Shown here: one piece after another, positions 24,621 to 31,838 of the stretch
Layout of the letters: each line of letters begins with the position of its first letter
Numbering within the stretch: position 1 is the stretch's first letter
Assembly: GCA_028688515.1 (NCBI GenBank)
Contig: JAQTXZ010000001.1
Location: forward strand, 1-64,000
Direction: 5' to 3'
DNA from: Patescibacteria group bacterium
GTDB lineage: Bacteria > Patescibacteriota > Patescibacteriia > 2-12-FULL-60-25
Length of the DNA: 64,000 bases
Made by a program: the position numbers and the translations under genes
Notes under the pieces: generated by a model
Database searches by the model: none
What the model was told of the DNA's origin: nothing
Seen by the model: the letters and a program-made list of their open reading frames with translations, nothing else

Positions 24621-24712
24621 AGAAGTGTTATTTATAAGTTAATCTATTCTTACTGTACAACCAATCTGACCGCCGGACAACAAGTCGGATGCGATCTGAT
24701 TTGTTTACAAAC

Positions 24713-24739
24713 AAAAATCCCGACAATGTCGAGATTTTT
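24713..24739. terminator. terminator at left edge of island
   Basis: AAAATCCCGAC/GTCGAGATTTTT hairpin. Its core (CCGACAATGTCGAG) is the same as that of the rplK terminator at 63517-63545. Confidence 0.8.
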
Positions 24740-24743
24740 GCGA

Positions 24744-24755
24744 TGGTGCACCAGA
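24744..24755. repeat. direct repeat TGGTGCACCAGA, left copy
   Basis: Same 12 bp as at 28187-28198, same orientation, and again directly behind a terminator. On the minus strand it reads TCTGGTGCACCA, like a tRNA acceptor end with CCA. The copies bracket a 3.4-kb gene cassette. Possible attachment site. Confidence 0.5.
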
Positions 24756-24982
24756 TTGCTCGACGTGCGTCGACTGATTTGTGATTCAACCCATCAATCC
24801 GGACAAGTTGCCCACAGCCCCGTGCCGAAAAGCGGACATGAATGTCCGGTAGCGCCCACCTCCGCAAACAAGATTGCCACGCTACACTACTACCGAGACG
24901 AGCCGGGGTAGTTTCGCTGGGCCCGCCCAACGTGAACCAGTACCACAACAACCAACCATTCTTAATCCGTAATCCTTGCACT

Positions 24983-25270
24983 ATGTCACAAGACACAAGT
25001 AGGCGGGCTCCCCGCCTGATCACCGCCCGAGAAGCTGCACGCTGCATCGGAATCACCAAGAGCACTTTCTACGATTGGCTCGCACGAGGCTACCTCCCGT
25101 GCCACAGGTTCGGGAGAACGATACGCGTGAATACATCAGACCTTGAAGCGTATCTCGTTCGAACACGCATGAACGAACTGGCAACGCCTAGCATTCTTGA
25201 GGCCCAACGAGCGAGCGGTCTCTCATTACCCGAACCATCGAAGTATTCAACTGAACAGCCCGTGCAATAG
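24983..25270 (+). CDS. excisionase-like helix-turn-helix protein
   Basis: A 95-residue DNA-binding protein of the HTH_17/MerR-like excisionase type. The segment ITAREAARCIGITKSTFYDWLARG (within residues 14-40) is the winged HTH, and CHRFGRTIRVNTSDLEAYL is the typical wing and end helix. These proteins act as excision factors or small regulators in mobile elements. It lies 230 nt inside the left direct repeat. The 3' end overlaps the convergent RuvC-like gene by 83 nt. The stretch 24756-24982 holds nothing I recognise. Confidence 0.82.
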   Translation: MSQDTSRRAPRLITAREAARCIGITKSTFYDWLARGYLPCHRFGRTIRVNTSDLEAYLVRTRMNELATPSILEAQRASGLSLPEPSKYSTEQPVQ

Positions 25271-25877
25271 TGATGGCGGCGAACAGGTCTCGCACCTCCC
25301 GGAGCTTTTCGCGATTACGCAGCAATTGCCCAGTATGATCCGGAAGCTTCAAGCGTATCAGAGAGCGGTACGGGTGCACCATCGACAGACATCCCTTCCA
25401 TCTGGTCGAGCCAGTCAATTGGGTTGATGCGCATCGTCGGCTGAGGTGAATAACCGGAACACCATAGAATTGCGCTAGACGAGTCAAGCTTGGGACCAAG
25501 GACTCAAGAGCGGGAGACTTCAATCCGGGTCGGCCTTGTTCGAGAACGAAGATGCGCGGTTCGTAGCGTGCAAGTACTCGATCGACGGCGCGGCAAAGGG
25601 TGAACACCTTAGCTGCGGGCGTCTTTGCACGGCGAAGGTAGACGCGGCGGAGCAGTAGAATCTCGTGTTCCTCATCCATACAGACCAGCCCCGCCCATCG
25701 ACCCGTTGGGGTGACGACCAAGACCGTGGGTTGTCGCGTACCATTCGAAGCCCGGCCGACAGTATCCGGGCACGCCAATTCTGGCCACCGGGACGAAGAG
25801 GCGACGGGCGTGGTGAATCGGGCGACCGGCGCCTCGGGTGAGCGCAGCGTAAGCGCGCCGAAGAGTATGCTAGACAT
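25188..25877 (-). CDS. RuvC/RNase H-like protein, first Asp missing
   Basis: A 229-residue protein with a RuvC-like fold. VLVVTPTGRWAGLV corresponds to the first strand (normally GIDPG), YEPRIFVLEQG to the strand with the second acid, LAQFYGVPVIHLSRR to the following strand, and VRDLFAAITIARA to the last helix with its Asp. The first catalytic Asp is Thr here, so nuclease activity is doubtful. The N-terminal 50 residues are low in recognisable features. It is convergent with the HTH gene and divergent, with 29 nt between, from the nuclease-like gene. A role in DNA processing of a mobile element is inference. Confidence 0.6.
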   Translation of the reverse strand: MSSILFGALTLRSPEAPVARFTTPVASSSRWPELACPDTVGRASNGTRQPTVLVVTPTGRWAGLVCMDEEHEILLLRRVYLRRAKTPAAKVFTLCRAVDRVLARYEPRIFVLEQGRPGLKSPALESLVPSLTRLAQFYGVPVIHLSRRCASTQLTGSTRWKGCLSMVHPYRSLIRLKLPDHTGQLLRNREKLREVRDLFAAITIARAVQLNTSMVRVMRDRSLVGPQEC

Positions 25878-25894
25878 AAGGGAAGACGTCGCGA

Positions 25895-25900
25895 TAGAAT
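25895..25900 (+). promoter_or_regulatory. -10 box of the island gene pair
   Basis: TAGAAT 6 nt before ATG 25907; leaderless type. Confidence 0.45.
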
Positions 25901-25906
25901 TGAAGC

Positions 25907-26782
25907 ATGCGCCTTAAGATTCCGCGAGCGACCGCCGAGGAACTCCTGAATGCTTCGCTCACCGAGGGGTTTGCCTTGATGCATCGAGTCGCTGGTGAAC
26001 ACGCCGCCGCGGTGAAGGCAGGCAGGTGGGACCCCGGCAAGGACAGGCCTGCGCGAGAAGCGCTGCTGAATGAGTGGTACGCGCGAACCATTGCTCAAGT
26101 GGGTAGCATCTTTCCCACGGAGCGTGAAGCTTACGAAGTAATTTACCCTCCGAATAGGGGGCTCAGCGCCGTTTCTGGTGATTACGAATGGCAGTCTCTC
26201 ATGCTTAATGTGCGCGAGAAGCTGCATGCGCTTCGAGGCGTCATCGACAACAGGCTTCGGGCATATACCGACTTACCGCTAAGACTTCGCCTCTACGTAG
26301 AGGACATAGAGAGTTTTCAGAAAGTGCGCGATGTCAACCCGGCCATGGTCGCGGGTCGACTTCGCGATGGCGGATACCTTGATATGCCAGAGGACCAGGT
26401 CCAGATTGCGCTGGAACAAATTCTGGACGTTCCTTTTCACAAGAAGGACTGGGGCGGTGAAAGTAATGATCTCTACACCTCTAACATTGTCCTCAATGGT
26501 TCGCGTATCGCATCGGCGTTCTTGCTCAAGGGGAACGGACTTCGCAAGGCCACGATGGAAATCGCGAATTGCGGCAAGAATGGGGATCAGATTCTGAGGC
26601 TCATGGAGGGTCCTGCACAGCTATTCGTCGTGCAATTCGTCGGCGAGGTATCCGAGGCAGTCATCAAGGACGTCGAAGGTAAAGTCGCGCAACTCCGAGC
26701 TGCAGGCAGAGATGCGTGTTTCCTGATCATGAACGGGCAAGATACGGCTCGGGTTCTGCATGCTTATGGGAAGCTGTCTTGA
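25907..26782 (+). CDS. nuclease-like protein, partner of HEPN/Toprim gene
   Basis: A 291-residue soluble protein. The C-terminal third (about 180-291) has a pattern I recall from an uncharacterised family: AFLLKGNG, a GKNGDQILRL segment, FVVQFVGEV, a helix, then IMNGQDTARVLHAYGK. The conserved Lys after a hydrophobic strand, with an acidic residue before it, would suit a PD-(D/E)xK-like nuclease, but I cannot confirm the fold. The N-terminal part is helical (about 1-130). It lies 83 nt upstream of the HEPN/Toprim gene, same strand. Together they look like a defence cassette; inference. Confidence 0.6.
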   Translation: MRLKIPRATAEELLNASLTEGFALMHRVAGEHAAAVKAGRWDPGKDRPAREALLNEWYARTIAQVGSIFPTEREAYEVIYPPNRGLSAVSGDYEWQSLMLNVREKLHALRGVIDNRLRAYTDLPLRLRLYVEDIESFQKVRDVNPAMVAGRLRDGGYLDMPEDQVQIALEQILDVPFHKKDWGGESNDLYTSNIVLNGSRIASAFLLKGNGLRKATMEIANCGKNGDQILRLMEGPAQLFVVQFVGEVSEAVIKDVEGKVAQLRAAGRDACFLIMNGQDTARVLHAYGKLS

Positions 26783-26865
26783 CGGTTCGCACTCAGCATT
26801 CGGAATATCCGATTGCCCGGTCTACGGTCCAAGACCAAATATCACTTGCATGGTAAATTGAGCAT

Positions 26866-28062
26866 ATGGGATCCATCGTAACGCTCGGACTGGGACGGCT
26901 CGAACTTGATTGGGGGAAGAACAACTTCTTTCGTAACCATTCGGGCCTCTTTCTACCTGATGACCGGCGTCAGGTGGATTACTACTATGCCGACGATATC
27001 GTGGAGGCCAAGGTCGCGCTCGCGCGGCCATTGCGGTCCGTAATGCGCCGGCTCGAGATGTTGGGATACACACTTTCGGGCTGCGAAGATGTATATGCTC
27101 AGGCGGTGGCGACGGTTCCCGACTACTACGATCCGCCGCTACTCGCGTTTGCCGAATACGCAGCGGTCATGAAGCGGGTTGACGTGACTAAGGTTACGCC
27201 GCCTGATGACGGCGACTATGACCTCGGAGAGTACGCGAACGCCGTGATCCGTGATCCTGAGTTCACTAAGTCTGACCCACGACTCGCTACGTTGAACTCG
27301 GACGATGGTACTTTCCTCGAGAACCTGGATCCTTACGTGACGCTCCGTCTGCTCGCAGAAAACCCGGCGCATTTGGATGAGCTAGTGATTTGGCGAATTG
27401 CCGACATCATCGAAGGCGGTTATGCGTCCGACTCTGAGATATATGAAGGTCCTCCGGCTGCTGCTGTCTGCCTTGTGGTGACCGAGGGATCGTCAGACAC
27501 TGCCGTGCTCCGCGAATCACTACAGCGCGTTGCCCCCGACATCGCCGACTTCTTCGACTTCGTCGACATGCGTGATAACTACCCCTTCACTGGCACAGGC
27601 AACCTCTTTCGATTCGCCCAAGGACTGGCGCGTATAAAGATACAAAACCGAATTCTGTTCGTCTTGGACAACGACACGGCTGGTCATGAAGCCCTACGAC
27701 GGATTTCCGCGCTGGGTTTGCCGCGAGATATGCGCGCCGTGACGCTGCCCGACCTCCGAGAGTGCAGAGAATTCCCCACGTTGGGTCCATCTGGGTCGAC
27801 GAAGGAGGATATCAACGGACGAGCGGTCTCGATCGAGCTCTTCTTGGATCTCCAAGCCGCCGATTCGAGCGAACGCGTGGTGCGGTGGACCAGCTTCAAT
27901 GAGGCGATCGGTCGGTACCAAGGCGAACTACTCGGAAAGGATGCTCACGTTCGCAGGTTTTTGGAAGCGATAAGGCGGCAGGAGAACTACGACTGCACAA
28001 AGCTAGAACGACTCTGGAAGCATCTGGTCGATGCGTGCACAAAGCCGGCCGCGACTCCTTGA
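26866..28062 (+). CDS. HEPN/Toprim-associated domain protein
   Basis: A 398-residue protein matching the HEPN_Toprim_N architecture: the N-terminus MGSIVTLGLGRLELDWGKNN with RRQVDYYYADDIVEAK and RRLEMLGYTL, a helical middle, then a TOPRIM domain at about residues 203-290. The TOPRIM acids are the Glu in VVTEGSSD and the DxD in FVLDNDTAGHEAL. The C-terminus includes KEDINGRAVSIELFL. Toprim domains cut or join nucleic acids with Mg2+. Relatives are commonly found near defence genes. TAAATT lies 6 nt before ATG 26866, so each gene of the pair has its own leaderless promoter. Confidence 0.82.
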   Translation: MGSIVTLGLGRLELDWGKNNFFRNHSGLFLPDDRRQVDYYYADDIVEAKVALARPLRSVMRRLEMLGYTLSGCEDVYAQAVATVPDYYDPPLLAFAEYAAVMKRVDVTKVTPPDDGDYDLGEYANAVIRDPEFTKSDPRLATLNSDDGTFLENLDPYVTLRLLAENPAHLDELVIWRIADIIEGGYASDSEIYEGPPAAAVCLVVTEGSSDTAVLRESLQRVAPDIADFFDFVDMRDNYPFTGTGNLFRFAQGLARIKIQNRILFVLDNDTAGHEALRRISALGLPRDMRAVTLPDLRECREFPTLGPSGSTKEDINGRAVSIELFLDLQAADSSERVVRWTSFNEAIGRYQGELLGKDAHVRRFLEAIRRQENYDCTKLERLWKHLVDACTKPAATP

Positions 28063-28155
28063 ATACTGGCCGCGGGTTCTAATTGCTTCTGGTGTTTGAT
28101 GTCGGCTGAATGGTGATTGTTGTGCGGGGGGAGCTCAACCTGGCCAAAAATAGAA

Positions 28156-28182
28156 AACCTACTCCTGTCCGTGGAGTAGGTT
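28156..28182. terminator. terminator at right edge of cassette
   Basis: AACCTACTCC pairs perfectly with GGAGTAGGTT around TGTCCGT. Confidence 0.8.
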
Positions 28183-28186
28183 CTTG

Positions 28187-28198
28187 TGGTGCACCAGA
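28187..28198. repeat. direct repeat TGGTGCACCAGA, right copy
   Basis: Right partner of 24744-24755, likewise just after a terminator. Confidence 0.5.
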
Positions 28199-28595
28199 CT
28201 ACTGGATGCTAGAAATGCCCTGCCCTCTGCGGCACAAACGTCGCGCGGTGAGTGGCACGGGCGCCGACGGTGAAGGAAGCGGCGCCACGCACACGAGCCA
28301 CGGTTGCGCTGCACGCGGACGTGGTTCGCTTCAACCTCCGCCGCAAGAGCACAGCGGGAACACGGGGCAGCGCAGCCGAGAACCAATCGGCCGCACGGGG
28401 TGTCCGCAAGTCCACTTTGGCTGCCAGTCGTGAAAAAGAAGGCACTCCAGTTTGAACGCGCGTCGGCGATCGGTGCAGTGCTCATCGTCGCTGACCGACG
28501 TGTGCAGGTGAGGTCGAGTATGCGGCGCGTGGTGCAGGCGCTTGCCGATGCCGGGAGCATGCTAGATCTTCGCTGTCCATCCCGACCGTCGCCGC
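28199..28595. other. GC-rich stretch without a recognised gene
   Basis: Open frames exist on both strands, but all are Arg/Cys-rich with no domain or ribosome site. It may hold remnants of mobile DNA. Confidence 0.4.
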
Positions 28596-29944
28596 TCAGG
28601 TCGCCCCGTCGTCAAGCAACAGGGCAACGTCTGGAGGCGGCTTCGGTGTCACGAGGCCCTCGACCGCCATGGCTATGGCCGTTGCTTGATTGCGGAGCTT
28701 TATGCGCGTCTCGACAGCTTCCCTTATTTCGCGAGCCAAGCGCTTCCGTTCCGAGTCGCTCTTGGGGAGCGGGATCTGGATCTCGCGAATACGCTTGCCC
28801 AGGGTGTCGATAATGTCTTGCGTGAACTGCTTGGCCTTCACCTGCCTGCGAACGATCGGAGTGTTTAGAGCAGCAAACAAGAGCCAAGGGTCTAACTCAT
28901 CGGGTTGTTGGACACGTATGCGAAGGATGTGGCTTTGAAACAGCATCGGCAGGTCGCTTTCGGTCACAATCGCTGTGGTCCCGATGAGGTACGTGCCGTC
29001 GCGAACCATCAGAATGTCACCGGCTCTTACGTCGCAAGCCTTACGGTAGGCTTCGTAGATAGCCTCACTCACGCCGTGCTTGAAGTCGGCCTTCATCTCC
29101 CAATTCGAGAGGTCGGAGGTCCGAATGAACGGGATTCTGCCGGTCCCGTAAGCCATCTTGCCGATTTCCGTGCCGGTCGAGAGTGTCACGACGCCCCGGT
29201 TCACCAACGACCCGATCTCAAGGAGCTTGTGGGTGCGGCGCAGTTTCTTGAGGTAGCCGTCGATCTCCGGGTCGTAGTACTTCGGAACGAGGATGCGTCC
29301 CCGAATCGCTCCGGATGACAGAACGAAGCCCTTGTGGTCCGGGGCACGCACCTTGCCGCTGCAGAAGGCGTGGTACGCCTCCGTCACTTCGGGCACTTCA
29401 TCTAGGAGTCTGTAGGCCCCGCGCTCATCCTTTCTGATGGTCGGATTACCTCGAGAGTCATGCCCGCACCACTTAGCGTCTGCCATGAAGATGTCGTGCG
29501 GGCCGGTTGGAGATTTGTTCTCCAGTACCAAGATGCAGACTTTCGTGTGGGTTCCGCCTTTGCCGCTGGTCTTGAACAGCACCTCGGGCATAGTCACCGC
29601 AACACGGATCGTTGTCCGCTGCATGATAAAGGTCACGATGTGCTCGTATGAAGGGTTCCCAAGAATGCTCTCGGGCAGAACGATCCCCAACCGCCCGCCT
29701 CGTTTGAGGAGCTGAAGACAGCGCTCCAAGAACAGCAGGTGGGGCGGTTGGTCGTCATGAAGCGTAGTCGTCTTCGAGAAGTCGCCGGTCGCGGGATGCC
29801 GCTTCCACTTGCATCCAAGGTCGTATTGACCAAGAGTTGCCGCACCCTTCACCGGGATCTTGCTACCGAACGGAGGATTGGTGAAGACAACATTGAATTG
29901 CCCGAGCCCAATTGCAGCTCGCGCCGCAGAATGCCATTCCGACG
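28596..29944 (-). pseudogene. truncated N6-adenine DNA methyltransferase with specificity domain
   Basis: The C-terminal two thirds of a type I-like HsdM protein fused to a target-recognition domain. It contains the catalytic NPPF motif (VVFTNPPFGSK), the following helix and strand (RLGIVLPESILGNPSYEHI) and an HsdS-like half (GTGRIPFIRTSDLSNW, MVRDGTYLIGTTAIV, KRIREIQIPLP). The N-terminus with the SAM-binding motif is lost: the frame runs into the oppositely oriented IS200-type fragment at about 29940. So it is probably inactive. No restriction subunit is seen beside it. GC is higher than in the housekeeping genes. Confidence 0.8.
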
Positions 29945-30240
29945 AACACAAGGAGTGCAAGATCGAGGAAGGGCACCTGATGCCTGACCACGTGCACATG
30001 CTGATCTCGATCCCCCCGAAGTACGCGGTGGCGCAGATTATCGGATACATCAAGGGGAAGAGCGCGATCCACATTGCGCGGACCTACATGGGCGTCCGAC
30101 GAAACTTCGTCGGGCAGAATTTCTGGGCGCGCGGGTACTTCGTGTCGACCGTAGGTCGGGACGAAGCGGCCGTGCGCGACTACATCCGGAAGCAGGAGGC
30201 CGAAGACAAGCGACTGGAGCAGATGAAGTTGAAGATGTAG
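29945..30240 (+). pseudogene. IS200/IS605-type Y1 transposase, N-terminus missing
   Basis: The last 95-100 residues of a TnpA-like single-strand transposase: the HUH motif in MPDHVHMLISIPPK, AQIIGYIKGKSAIHIAR, FWARGYFVSTVG and the catalytic Tyr helix VRDYIRKQE. About 40-50 residues are missing from the N-terminus, where it meets the broken methyltransferase head to head. Plausibly its insertion or a later deletion broke both genes. Confidence 0.85.
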
Positions 30241-30243
30241 TAG

Positions 30244-30350
30244 GGACGCCACCGCCAGGTGGCTCACAGGGCCGCTCGTGAGCGGCTCACAACCGTTGCC
30301 GCCTTGGGCGGCTCACATATGCAATCCCCCCGGCTTTGCCGGGGGATTCT
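30244..30350 (+). repeat. hairpin-rich right end of IS200-type element
   Basis: Three GGCTCAC boxes alternate with hairpins (GCCACC..GGTGGC, GCCGCTCGTGAGCGGC, GCCGCC..GGCGGC), ending in AATCCCCCCGG/CCGGGGGATT. Ends of this sort are typical of Y1-transposase elements. Confidence 0.65.
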
Positions 30351-30404
30351 TAGTGCACGAGTGAGAACAGCGTTTGACGTTGAGGCGCCAGCATGACTCG
30401 CCGG

Positions 30405-30660
30405 TACGCTACGACCTCGGCGTATCCTGGCTACGATCTTCCAAGCGCAGCCGAAGAGCCAACCCCGGATCGCGTGCCGGTCGGCGAAGTCCGCTGTCTT
30501 CTCCCGCATCCTGAGCACGGTGAGGACTGCGATGTCCTGGATCACATCCGCGGGATCCGCTACGCCGCACGCAATCCGAGCGAGTCGGTTGCGTCCTTCG
30601 CCGTGGGCTAGGCGATGAATTTCCCGGCACACCGCCTCTTCGCTGGACCACGGGTCGTCG
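30405..30660 (-). pseudogene. fragment of an ECF-type sigma factor (region 2)
   Basis: Within a longer open frame (30264-30806), only this part looks conserved: DPADVIQDIAVLTVL and IRGWLFGCAWKIVARIRR match sigma-70 region 2 (core binding and -10 recognition). Region 4 is absent, and the frame continues into the IS right end. So it is a truncated gene. Sigma factors of this kind are rare in CPR genomes, which suggests an outside source. Confidence 0.55.
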
Positions 30661-31123
30661 CTCGTGCGCTGGATGCCATCAAGGCTCGCTTGACCGTTTC
30701 CGCCGCAACATGATACTAATGAACCAGTTGACGTTCCCACCTTCCCGCACATGGTCACCTCCGCGCACGGTGACGATGCGCCCACAGGTGGGGGCGCCAC
30801 CGACACCGCGAGTCTCAGCGCGGCTCTACCGGGCTGCTATCCCGGTAGGGGCGTCGACGACGCCCCCACTCCTAACCCCGACACCAATGCCGGGGTCTTT
30901 TGTTGGCCGCTCGCGTTGTTGGCGGGCTGCTCCCGCCAACCAACAGCATGATGACTCGGGGGAGCGGTACGTGCCTTACAAGAGACGCTCCTAACCGCCC
31001 AAAATATCGGCCGAATTTGCACCTGCGCGGGATGAGATTCGGCCGAATTCCGATTGGAACGGGCACGCGCGGGCACAGTGCTAAACTTGGGGCTGGCAAC
31101 CACTCACCGCTCGAGGAGCACCA
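30661..31123. other. GC-rich hairpin region without a clear gene
   Basis: It contains several strong palindromes, such as CCCCG..CGGGG followed by TCTTTT (30876-30900, a likely terminator) and TTGGCGGG..CCCGCCAA (about 30919-30940). Short frames are not convincing. Confidence 0.45.
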
Positions 31124-31432
31124 ATGACACTTGAAGGCTCAGACGAGATCATGTTGTGGCTGGAAGGTTCAACTGAGGGGCAGGTCGTGCTGGTCAGGCA
31201 AGATGACACGGGCGTGAAACCTGCTGCGTTCGACAGCACGATCTGGCCACGCCTCCTTGGCGGCCCCGGTCCGCGTTCACCGCAAGGCGACACGTGTGCA
31301 CGCTTCGTTGTTCTCCTTGCCCTGCTCGCGTGCAGGGAAAAAGAGGGTGTCCATGGCATCAGTGCCACTGACCTGCAATGCCTGGGTTGGCACACACGAC
31401 CGCGCCGATCGAATTCGTCATTCTCTCGATGA
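31124..31432 (+). CDS. small hypothetical protein of the island
   Basis: A 102-residue frame starting at ATG 31124 with GAGGAG about 6 nt upstream. The first 45 residues look like normal protein (EIMLWLEGSTEGQVVLVRQDD), the rest is Arg/Cys-rich and overlaps the recombinase remnant in another frame. So it may be a truncated gene. No family recognised. Confidence 0.4.
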   Translation: MTLEGSDEIMLWLEGSTEGQVVLVRQDDTGVKPAAFDSTIWPRLLGGPGPRSPQGDTCARFVVLLALLACREKEGVHGISATDLQCLGWHTRPRRSNSSFSR

Positions 31433-31811
31433 CCCCGAAGCCGAAATCGACTCCTGGAGGACCGTCACCACGGATGCCTTGACCTTCTCCGCTACCGCCC
31501 TCGATTCCTTTCGGAACGGCAGCGAAGACGACCGCCGCGCCATCCTCGCAAGGATGTACGCGAACCTCTTGGTGACCGACCGAAAAGTGGCTCCAGTACT
31601 GCGTTTTCCATACTCGTTGCTCGACGGAGAGCGTCCTGACGGCGATATGGGAAAAGGGCCGAGTCAGAACCCGCCCGACCCGTCGAAAATCTGGCTCAGT
31701 CTACGCAAAAAGGCACGGCCGCGAGACGCTCGCGAACGTGCCTTTATGGACTGGTGCTCGGGAGAGGACTTGAACCTCCAAGGGCTTGCGCCCGCTAGCA
31801 CCTCAAGCTAG
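31353..31811 (+). pseudogene. C-terminal remnant of a large serine recombinase
   Basis: The segment FSATALDSFRNGSEDDRRAIL (31480-31550) with ANLLVTDRKVAPVLRFPYSLL resembles the far C-terminus of large serine recombinases common in CPR genomes. The catalytic domain is absent. The frame then runs through the tRNA-Leu terminator into the tRNA. A recombinase tail next to a tRNA suggests an old integration at this place. Confidence 0.45.
31708..31746 (-). terminator. terminator of tRNA-Leu
   Basis: AAAAAGGCACG and CGTGCCTTTA pair around a GC-rich inner hairpin. Confidence 0.8.
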
Positions 31812-31838
31812 TGCGTATACCAGTTCCGCCACCCGAGC
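31752..31838 (-). tRNA. tRNA-Leu (anticodon GAG)
   Basis: On the minus strand: acceptor GCTCGGG/CCCGAGC, anticodon stem CTAGC/GCTAG with loop TTGAGGT giving GAG, a long variable arm (GGGCGCAAGCCC) and T stem GGAGG/CCTCT-type. CCA is encoded. It marks the right edge of the island. Confidence 0.94.

Follow-up and report, generated by a model that had tools for sequence, protein, structure and literature searches.

The locus raises the question of whether two neighbouring genes, ORF1 and ORF2, constitute a two-gene defence system that has not been described as a unit, as a first-pass annotation had proposed, or whether two separate genes have come to lie side by side. The window, that is, the whole stretch of DNA that was analysed, comprises 64,000 nucleotides of a patescibacterial genome assembled as 1.29 Mb in 4 contigs.

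The gene pair and its island

As the annotation had it, both genes lie on the + strand, and the gap between them is 83 bp. ORF1 (25907–26782) encodes a solo protein of 291 aa with a predicted helical N-terminal bundle and a predicted C-terminal PD-(D/E)xK-like nuclease domain, and ORF2 (26866–28062) encodes a protein of 398 aa that joins a HEPN/Toprim-NTD1 domain to a TOPRIM nuclease domain and lacks a HEPN domain. Their GC contents at the three codon positions are similar (0.65/0.40/0.61 for ORF1 and 0.65/0.42/0.65 for ORF2). The two genes are located inside a GC-rich foreign island (24640–31750, with approximate edges drawn from the GC profile and the tRNA end), in which GC content is 0.54–0.63 as compared with 0.42–0.48 in the flanks, and the end of which is marked by a tRNA-Leu (gag) gene at 31752–31838. 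The GC step, the tRNA-Leu end and a truncated restriction-modification (R-M) methylase/specificity ORF bear out the earlier placement of the pair in an island that carries R-M remnants. This last ORF (28596–30074, − strand) combines an N6 methylase with a type I specificity part and is missing its N-terminal portion, as its Pfam match covers the profile only from position 122 of 311 onward. By eye, the segment into which this ORF runs (29860–30240) resembles a fragment of an IS200-type transposase. Also by eye, the + strand segment 31257–31811 looks like what is left of the C-terminus of a serine recombinase; it ends at the tRNA-Leu gene and is probably a relic of the island's integration.

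A TANNNT hexamer ends 6 nt upstream of each ATG: TAGAAT (25895–25900, + strand), a possible −10 element of ORF1 that is not above chance expectation, and TAAATT preceded by TGG (26854–26859, + strand), a possible −10 element of ORF2 that the formal scan did not return. No clear Shine-Dalgarno sequence was seen before either ATG, and the formal promoter scan returned 1 promoter-like site where 1.2 would be expected by chance. The hexamers and the lack of a clear Shine-Dalgarno sequence fit the separate leaderless promoters proposed at first, which the promoter scan does not raise above chance; leaderless expression of both genes is plausible from the sequence.

ORF1 carries a widespread nuclease-like domain

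No model in Pfam, NCBIfam, PADLOC or PHROGs matched ORF1. A profile search of PDB sequences retrieved only designed armadillo repeats, which were judged spurious, and the best viral matches, none with E as low as 0.1, were to Mrr and to restriction endonucleases. An alignment of homologues together with the structure model divides the protein into an all-helical N-terminal domain (residues 1–125; 25907–26281, + strand) and a widely distributed nuclease-like domain (residues 126–291; 26282–26779, + strand), the latter also delimited by fold matches. Residues 1–125 are common only to a close family (L017–L023), with an interrupted copy in L016. Because the members of this family also carry the N-terminal domain, and align to ORF1 along its full length at 25–33% identity (E 9e-9 to 9e-19), ORF1 belongs to a full-length, evidently mobile family, as judged from sequence. 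A reading of the N-terminus as a HEPN domain was rejected, since its RxxxxH string, RVAGEH, is not kept in the homologues.

Relatives of residues 126–291 were found in genomes of the same phylum, on plasmids, in one phage record, on viral contigs and at no fewer than 104 genome loci (at least 104, of which 80 were analysed), spanning Cyanobacteria, Bacteroidota, Acidobacteriota, Chloroflexota, Actinomycetota, Pseudomonadota and archaea. In a Cylindrospermum protein (L024:6954–8495), the domain is fused to pentapeptide repeats. The four strings singled out in the first reading, AFLLKG (residues 204–209), GKNGDQILRL (223–232), FVVQFVGE (240–247) and GQDTARVLHAYGK (277–289), are all present and are conserved motifs of the family rather than chance resemblances.

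The structure model of ORF1 (pLDDT 93.6) shows a helical bundle (residues 1–125) followed by a core of helix (162–172), two-strand hairpin (189–196 and 199–208), helix (224–234) and strand (239–244). Foldseek gave no significant match for this model and was uninformative for that of ORF2 as well; the fold matches reported here for both proteins come from a second structural aligner. With that aligner, residues 143–291 matched the N-terminal part of Avs4 (8dgf; Z 7.4), MspJI (6.8), AspBHI (6.6) and EcoT38I (5.4), and residues 159–290 matched RPB5 (Z up to 5.8). All five share a PD-(D/E)xK-like fold. Because these matches, weak or middling individually (Z 5.4–7.4), agree on one fold, the model supports a PD-(D/E)xK-like core in the C-terminal domain of ORF1, which is what had been guessed from the sequence.

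Eight residues, E162, D181, E185, D188, K208, D227, Q228 and R231, are invariant in 79 of 79 aligned members of the domain; invariance within residues ~179–187 and 222–229 was partly imposed, as the search patterns spanned these stretches, and E162, D188, K208 and R231 stand outside them. In the model, E162 (26390–26392, + strand) lies at the N-terminus of the first core helix, E185 and D188 belong to a WGGExxD motif (26459–26470, + strand) that places D188 just before the first strand of the hairpin, K208 (26528–26530, + strand) closes the second strand as the lysine of an xxK motif, and D227, Q228 and R231 fall within GKNGDQILR (residues 223–231; 26573–26599, + strand). D188 and K208 stand in the order expected of a PD-(D/E)xK site. 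The residue two positions before K208 is acidic in 0 of 79 members, being L, A, G, I, M, V or Q instead. Because the position of the (D/E)xK acid is never acidic, either the active site is rearranged or ORF1 is not an enzyme; from their conservation, E162 and E185 could substitute for the missing acid. On the second of these readings, ORF1 would have a PD-(D/E)xK-like fold without catalytic activity and would bind nucleic acid or protein. This view draws on the absence of the acid throughout the family and on the presence of the non-enzymatic RPB5 among the fold matches. We regard it as unlikely, since a dead fold would not need invariant E162, E185, D188, K208 and Q228, and MspJI-type enzymes, too, vary in the residue at the (D/E)xK acid position.

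ORF2 is a Toprim protein of defence-type architecture

The N-terminal domain of ORF2 (residues 1–192; 26866–27441, + strand) matched Pfam family PF18871, HEPN_Toprim_N, with an E value of 4.8e-30, above the curated cut-off. This name denotes an N-terminal domain that is able to precede either HEPN or Toprim effectors (PMC3710099). In ORF2, the C-terminal part (residues 196–398; 27451–28059, + strand) is a TOPRIM domain, and no HEPN effector family of Pfam matched at E<=1. The original description as a HEPN_Toprim_N protein with intact Toprim acids can therefore be kept as regards the PF18871 domain and the invariant E207, D268 and D270, with the correction that a HEPN domain is absent.

The model of ORF2 (mean pLDDT 80, pTM 0.82) resembled the Toprim part of retron Eco2 most closely (Z 8.8 and 8.7, over ~170 residues), followed by T7 primase and OLD nucleases (Z 7.6 for OLD). 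Six residues, E207, D211, D268, D270, E324 and K358, are kept without exception in ORF2 and its relatives, and residue 322 is S or A among the relatives. The Toprim domain of Eco2 is an RNase with catalytic residues E374, D378, D460, D462, S513/E515 and K562 (PMC12405507); by motif order and spacing, as distinct from a residue-level structural alignment, the six residues of ORF2 match E374, D378, D460, D462, E515 and K562, respectively. Sequence and model together support the view that ORF2 is a putative Toprim nuclease of defence-type architecture with a catalytic set of the OLD/retron Eco2 type.

Relatives of ORF2 were found on 50 plasmid records. Among their neighbours are AbiV and CBASS genes, an AbiE-type toxin gene and a Fic gene; no recurrent partner was seen, and five plasmids show differing partners. 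One relative (L096:6001–7254) is inserted among apparent structural genes of a Mu-like phage, as is typical of a cargo gene.

Genomic contexts of the ORF1 domain

At four loci (L025, L030, L032 and L035), a type III R-M modification gene is directly followed, after ~9 bp, by a gene for an ORF1-type domain, an arrangement that would suit an additional subunit, and at L027 a gene for such a domain adjoins hsdM-hsdS. An Abi_2 gene stands beside the ORF1 relative of L017, with an R-M-like cluster nearby. The R-M contexts among these, together with the methylase/specificity remnant ~0.5 kb past ORF2, are what would be expected if ORF1 were an accessory R-M subunit whose partner here had been the nearby methylase fragment. 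The remnant in the window, however, is truncated and runs opposite to ORF1 and ORF2, and the close relatives that share the full length of ORF1 are otherwise found outside R-M operons and have no neighbours in common: when the genes within 5 kb were clustered, no cluster was common to two loci of this family, in neighbour lists that were compiled from mechanical ORF calls and include some false ORFs. We consider this role of ORF1 improbable.

On a viral contig (L014:4511–7578), two AbiTii genes are followed by a gene for a 227-aa ORF1-type protein and then by an AbiJ_NTD4 gene, and in a phage-labelled stool record (L008:2196–6403), an ORF1-type gene lies beside an ORF that by eye is Sir2-like and a HerA-like ATPase gene. 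At 11 actinobacterial loci (L042:2221–8501, L041, L043, L045, L046, L049, L050, L051, L054, L056 and L059), an ORF1-type domain is encoded immediately after a Ser/Thr kinase. The operon specifies a Walker A protein of ~1030 aa that has no match in Pfam, a kinase of ~456 aa and the ORF1-type nuclease, and a gene for ~250 aa often precedes them; L041 and L056 have the large gene on the opposite strand. As a candidate for an undescribed unit, this ATPase-like/kinase/nuclease operon is stronger than the pair in the window. PADLOC models were not in excess beside the ORF1 domain relative to distant genes of the same loci (213 families/133 proteins vs 152/92, a crude control). Because of this negative result, a defence role of the domain draws on the individual contexts, and our confidence in it is lowered.

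No support for ORF1 and ORF2 as a unit

Within the collections that were searched, the two families adjoin nowhere but in the window. A relative of ORF2 was found near the ORF1 domain at 0 of 80 genome loci, with up to 8 kb considered on each side, and at 0 of 5 further loci (0 of 85 ORF1-domain loci), and ORF1 was found at 0 of 7 viral loci of ORF2. Among 50 whole genomes that carry the ORF1 domain, one also encodes ORF2, on another contig, and among the nine closest genomes none does. A survey of the phylum (380 genomes) found 4 with the ORF1 domain and 2 with ORF2; the source genome alone had both. Because ORF2 was found in only 3 of 385 genomes around an ORF2 carrier (2 of 380 in the phylum), its presence in 1 of 50 ORF1-domain genomes is approximately at chance level. 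The search for co-occurrence that the first-pass annotation had called for yielded no second adjacent pair in any of these collections, the outcome that the annotation had itself named as counting against its proposal. The idea of an undescribed two-gene defence unit is thus not supported, and within the limits of these collections ORF1 and ORF2 are not one system. The actinobacterial and type III modification loci show how recurrent adjacency looks in the same data. That the pair is instead a rare system, newly assembled in this lineage, with sensing assigned to one protein and cutting to the other, would accord with the shared strand, the 83 bp gap, the similar composition and the nuclease-like character of both proteins, but is highly improbable given that no second instance exists in the searched collections, that each gene is found elsewhere without the other and that the two lack translational coupling. 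Because the relatives of each gene occur alone or with other partners, chance is the most likely cause of the adjacency, in an island that serves as a gene dump.

Discussion

We propose, as the probable explanation of this locus, that ORF1 and ORF2 are two single-gene nuclease effectors that are independent of each other, were gained by horizontal transfer, most likely act against phages and came to lie side by side in a decaying island next to a tRNA-Leu gene. Each protein would be held inactive through its own N-terminal domain and freed by a phage signal, the two acting as independent effectors. In ORF1, the helical N-terminal domain may serve in sensing or oligomerisation, and E162, E185, D188 and K208, conserved residues of the predicted fold, would hold the metal for cutting nucleic acid, most likely DNA. 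In ORF2, the PF18871 domain would act as a sensor that keeps the enzyme off and so controls a two-metal TOPRIM nuclease; upon sensing of a phage, the nuclease would cut RNA or DNA and thereby stop the infection. More tentatively, ORF1 may be the founding member of a family of PD-(D/E)xK-like effectors that no model covers and whose active site (E162/E185/D188/K208) is rearranged. The catalytic module would then move between solo genes, type III R-M operons, AbiTii pairs and the ATPase-kinase-nuclease operon and would function as a general anti-phage DNA cutter.

The practical consequence is that the two genes are worth testing singly, and the claimed unit would have misdirected such tests. The useful outcome of the analysis is a widespread nuclease-like family, present in archaea and many bacterial phyla, which has no Pfam, NCBIfam or PADLOC model and deserves one. 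Its domain does have real, recurrent partners, in Actinobacteria and in type III R-M operons.

In PARIS (AriAB) and Gabija, a Toprim nuclease effector works with an ATPase domain or partner. ORF2 is likewise a predicted Toprim nuclease effector, but it has no adjoining ATPase gene. By fold and, as judged by motif, by catalytic set, it is like the Toprim effector of retron Eco2 (Ec67) and the OLD nucleases; unlike these, it lacks a reverse transcriptase, msDNA and an ATPase, and its sensor part would be the PF18871 domain. The combination of HEPN/Toprim-NTD1 with TOPRIM was named in 2013 and placed among Abi-like proteins (Anantharaman et al. 2013, PMC3710099), and the architecture of ORF2 is the same, without essential difference; no characterised member with this architecture was found in the literature searched. 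Residues 143–291 of ORF1 are predicted to fold like the N-terminal domain of Avs4, MspJI, AspBHI and EcoT38I, with D preceding K as expected. In contrast to these PD-(D/E)xK endonucleases, with which it has no detected sequence similarity, ORF1 has the (D/E)xK acid replaced and an N-terminal helical domain of its own. The AbiTii-associated protein of viral contig L014 is 62% identical to the ORF1 domain but lacks the N-terminal domain, and its gene is the one preceded by AbiTii genes. In relation to known systems, then, the architecture of ORF2 is a known one, and ORF1 represents a known fold in a variant that no model covers.
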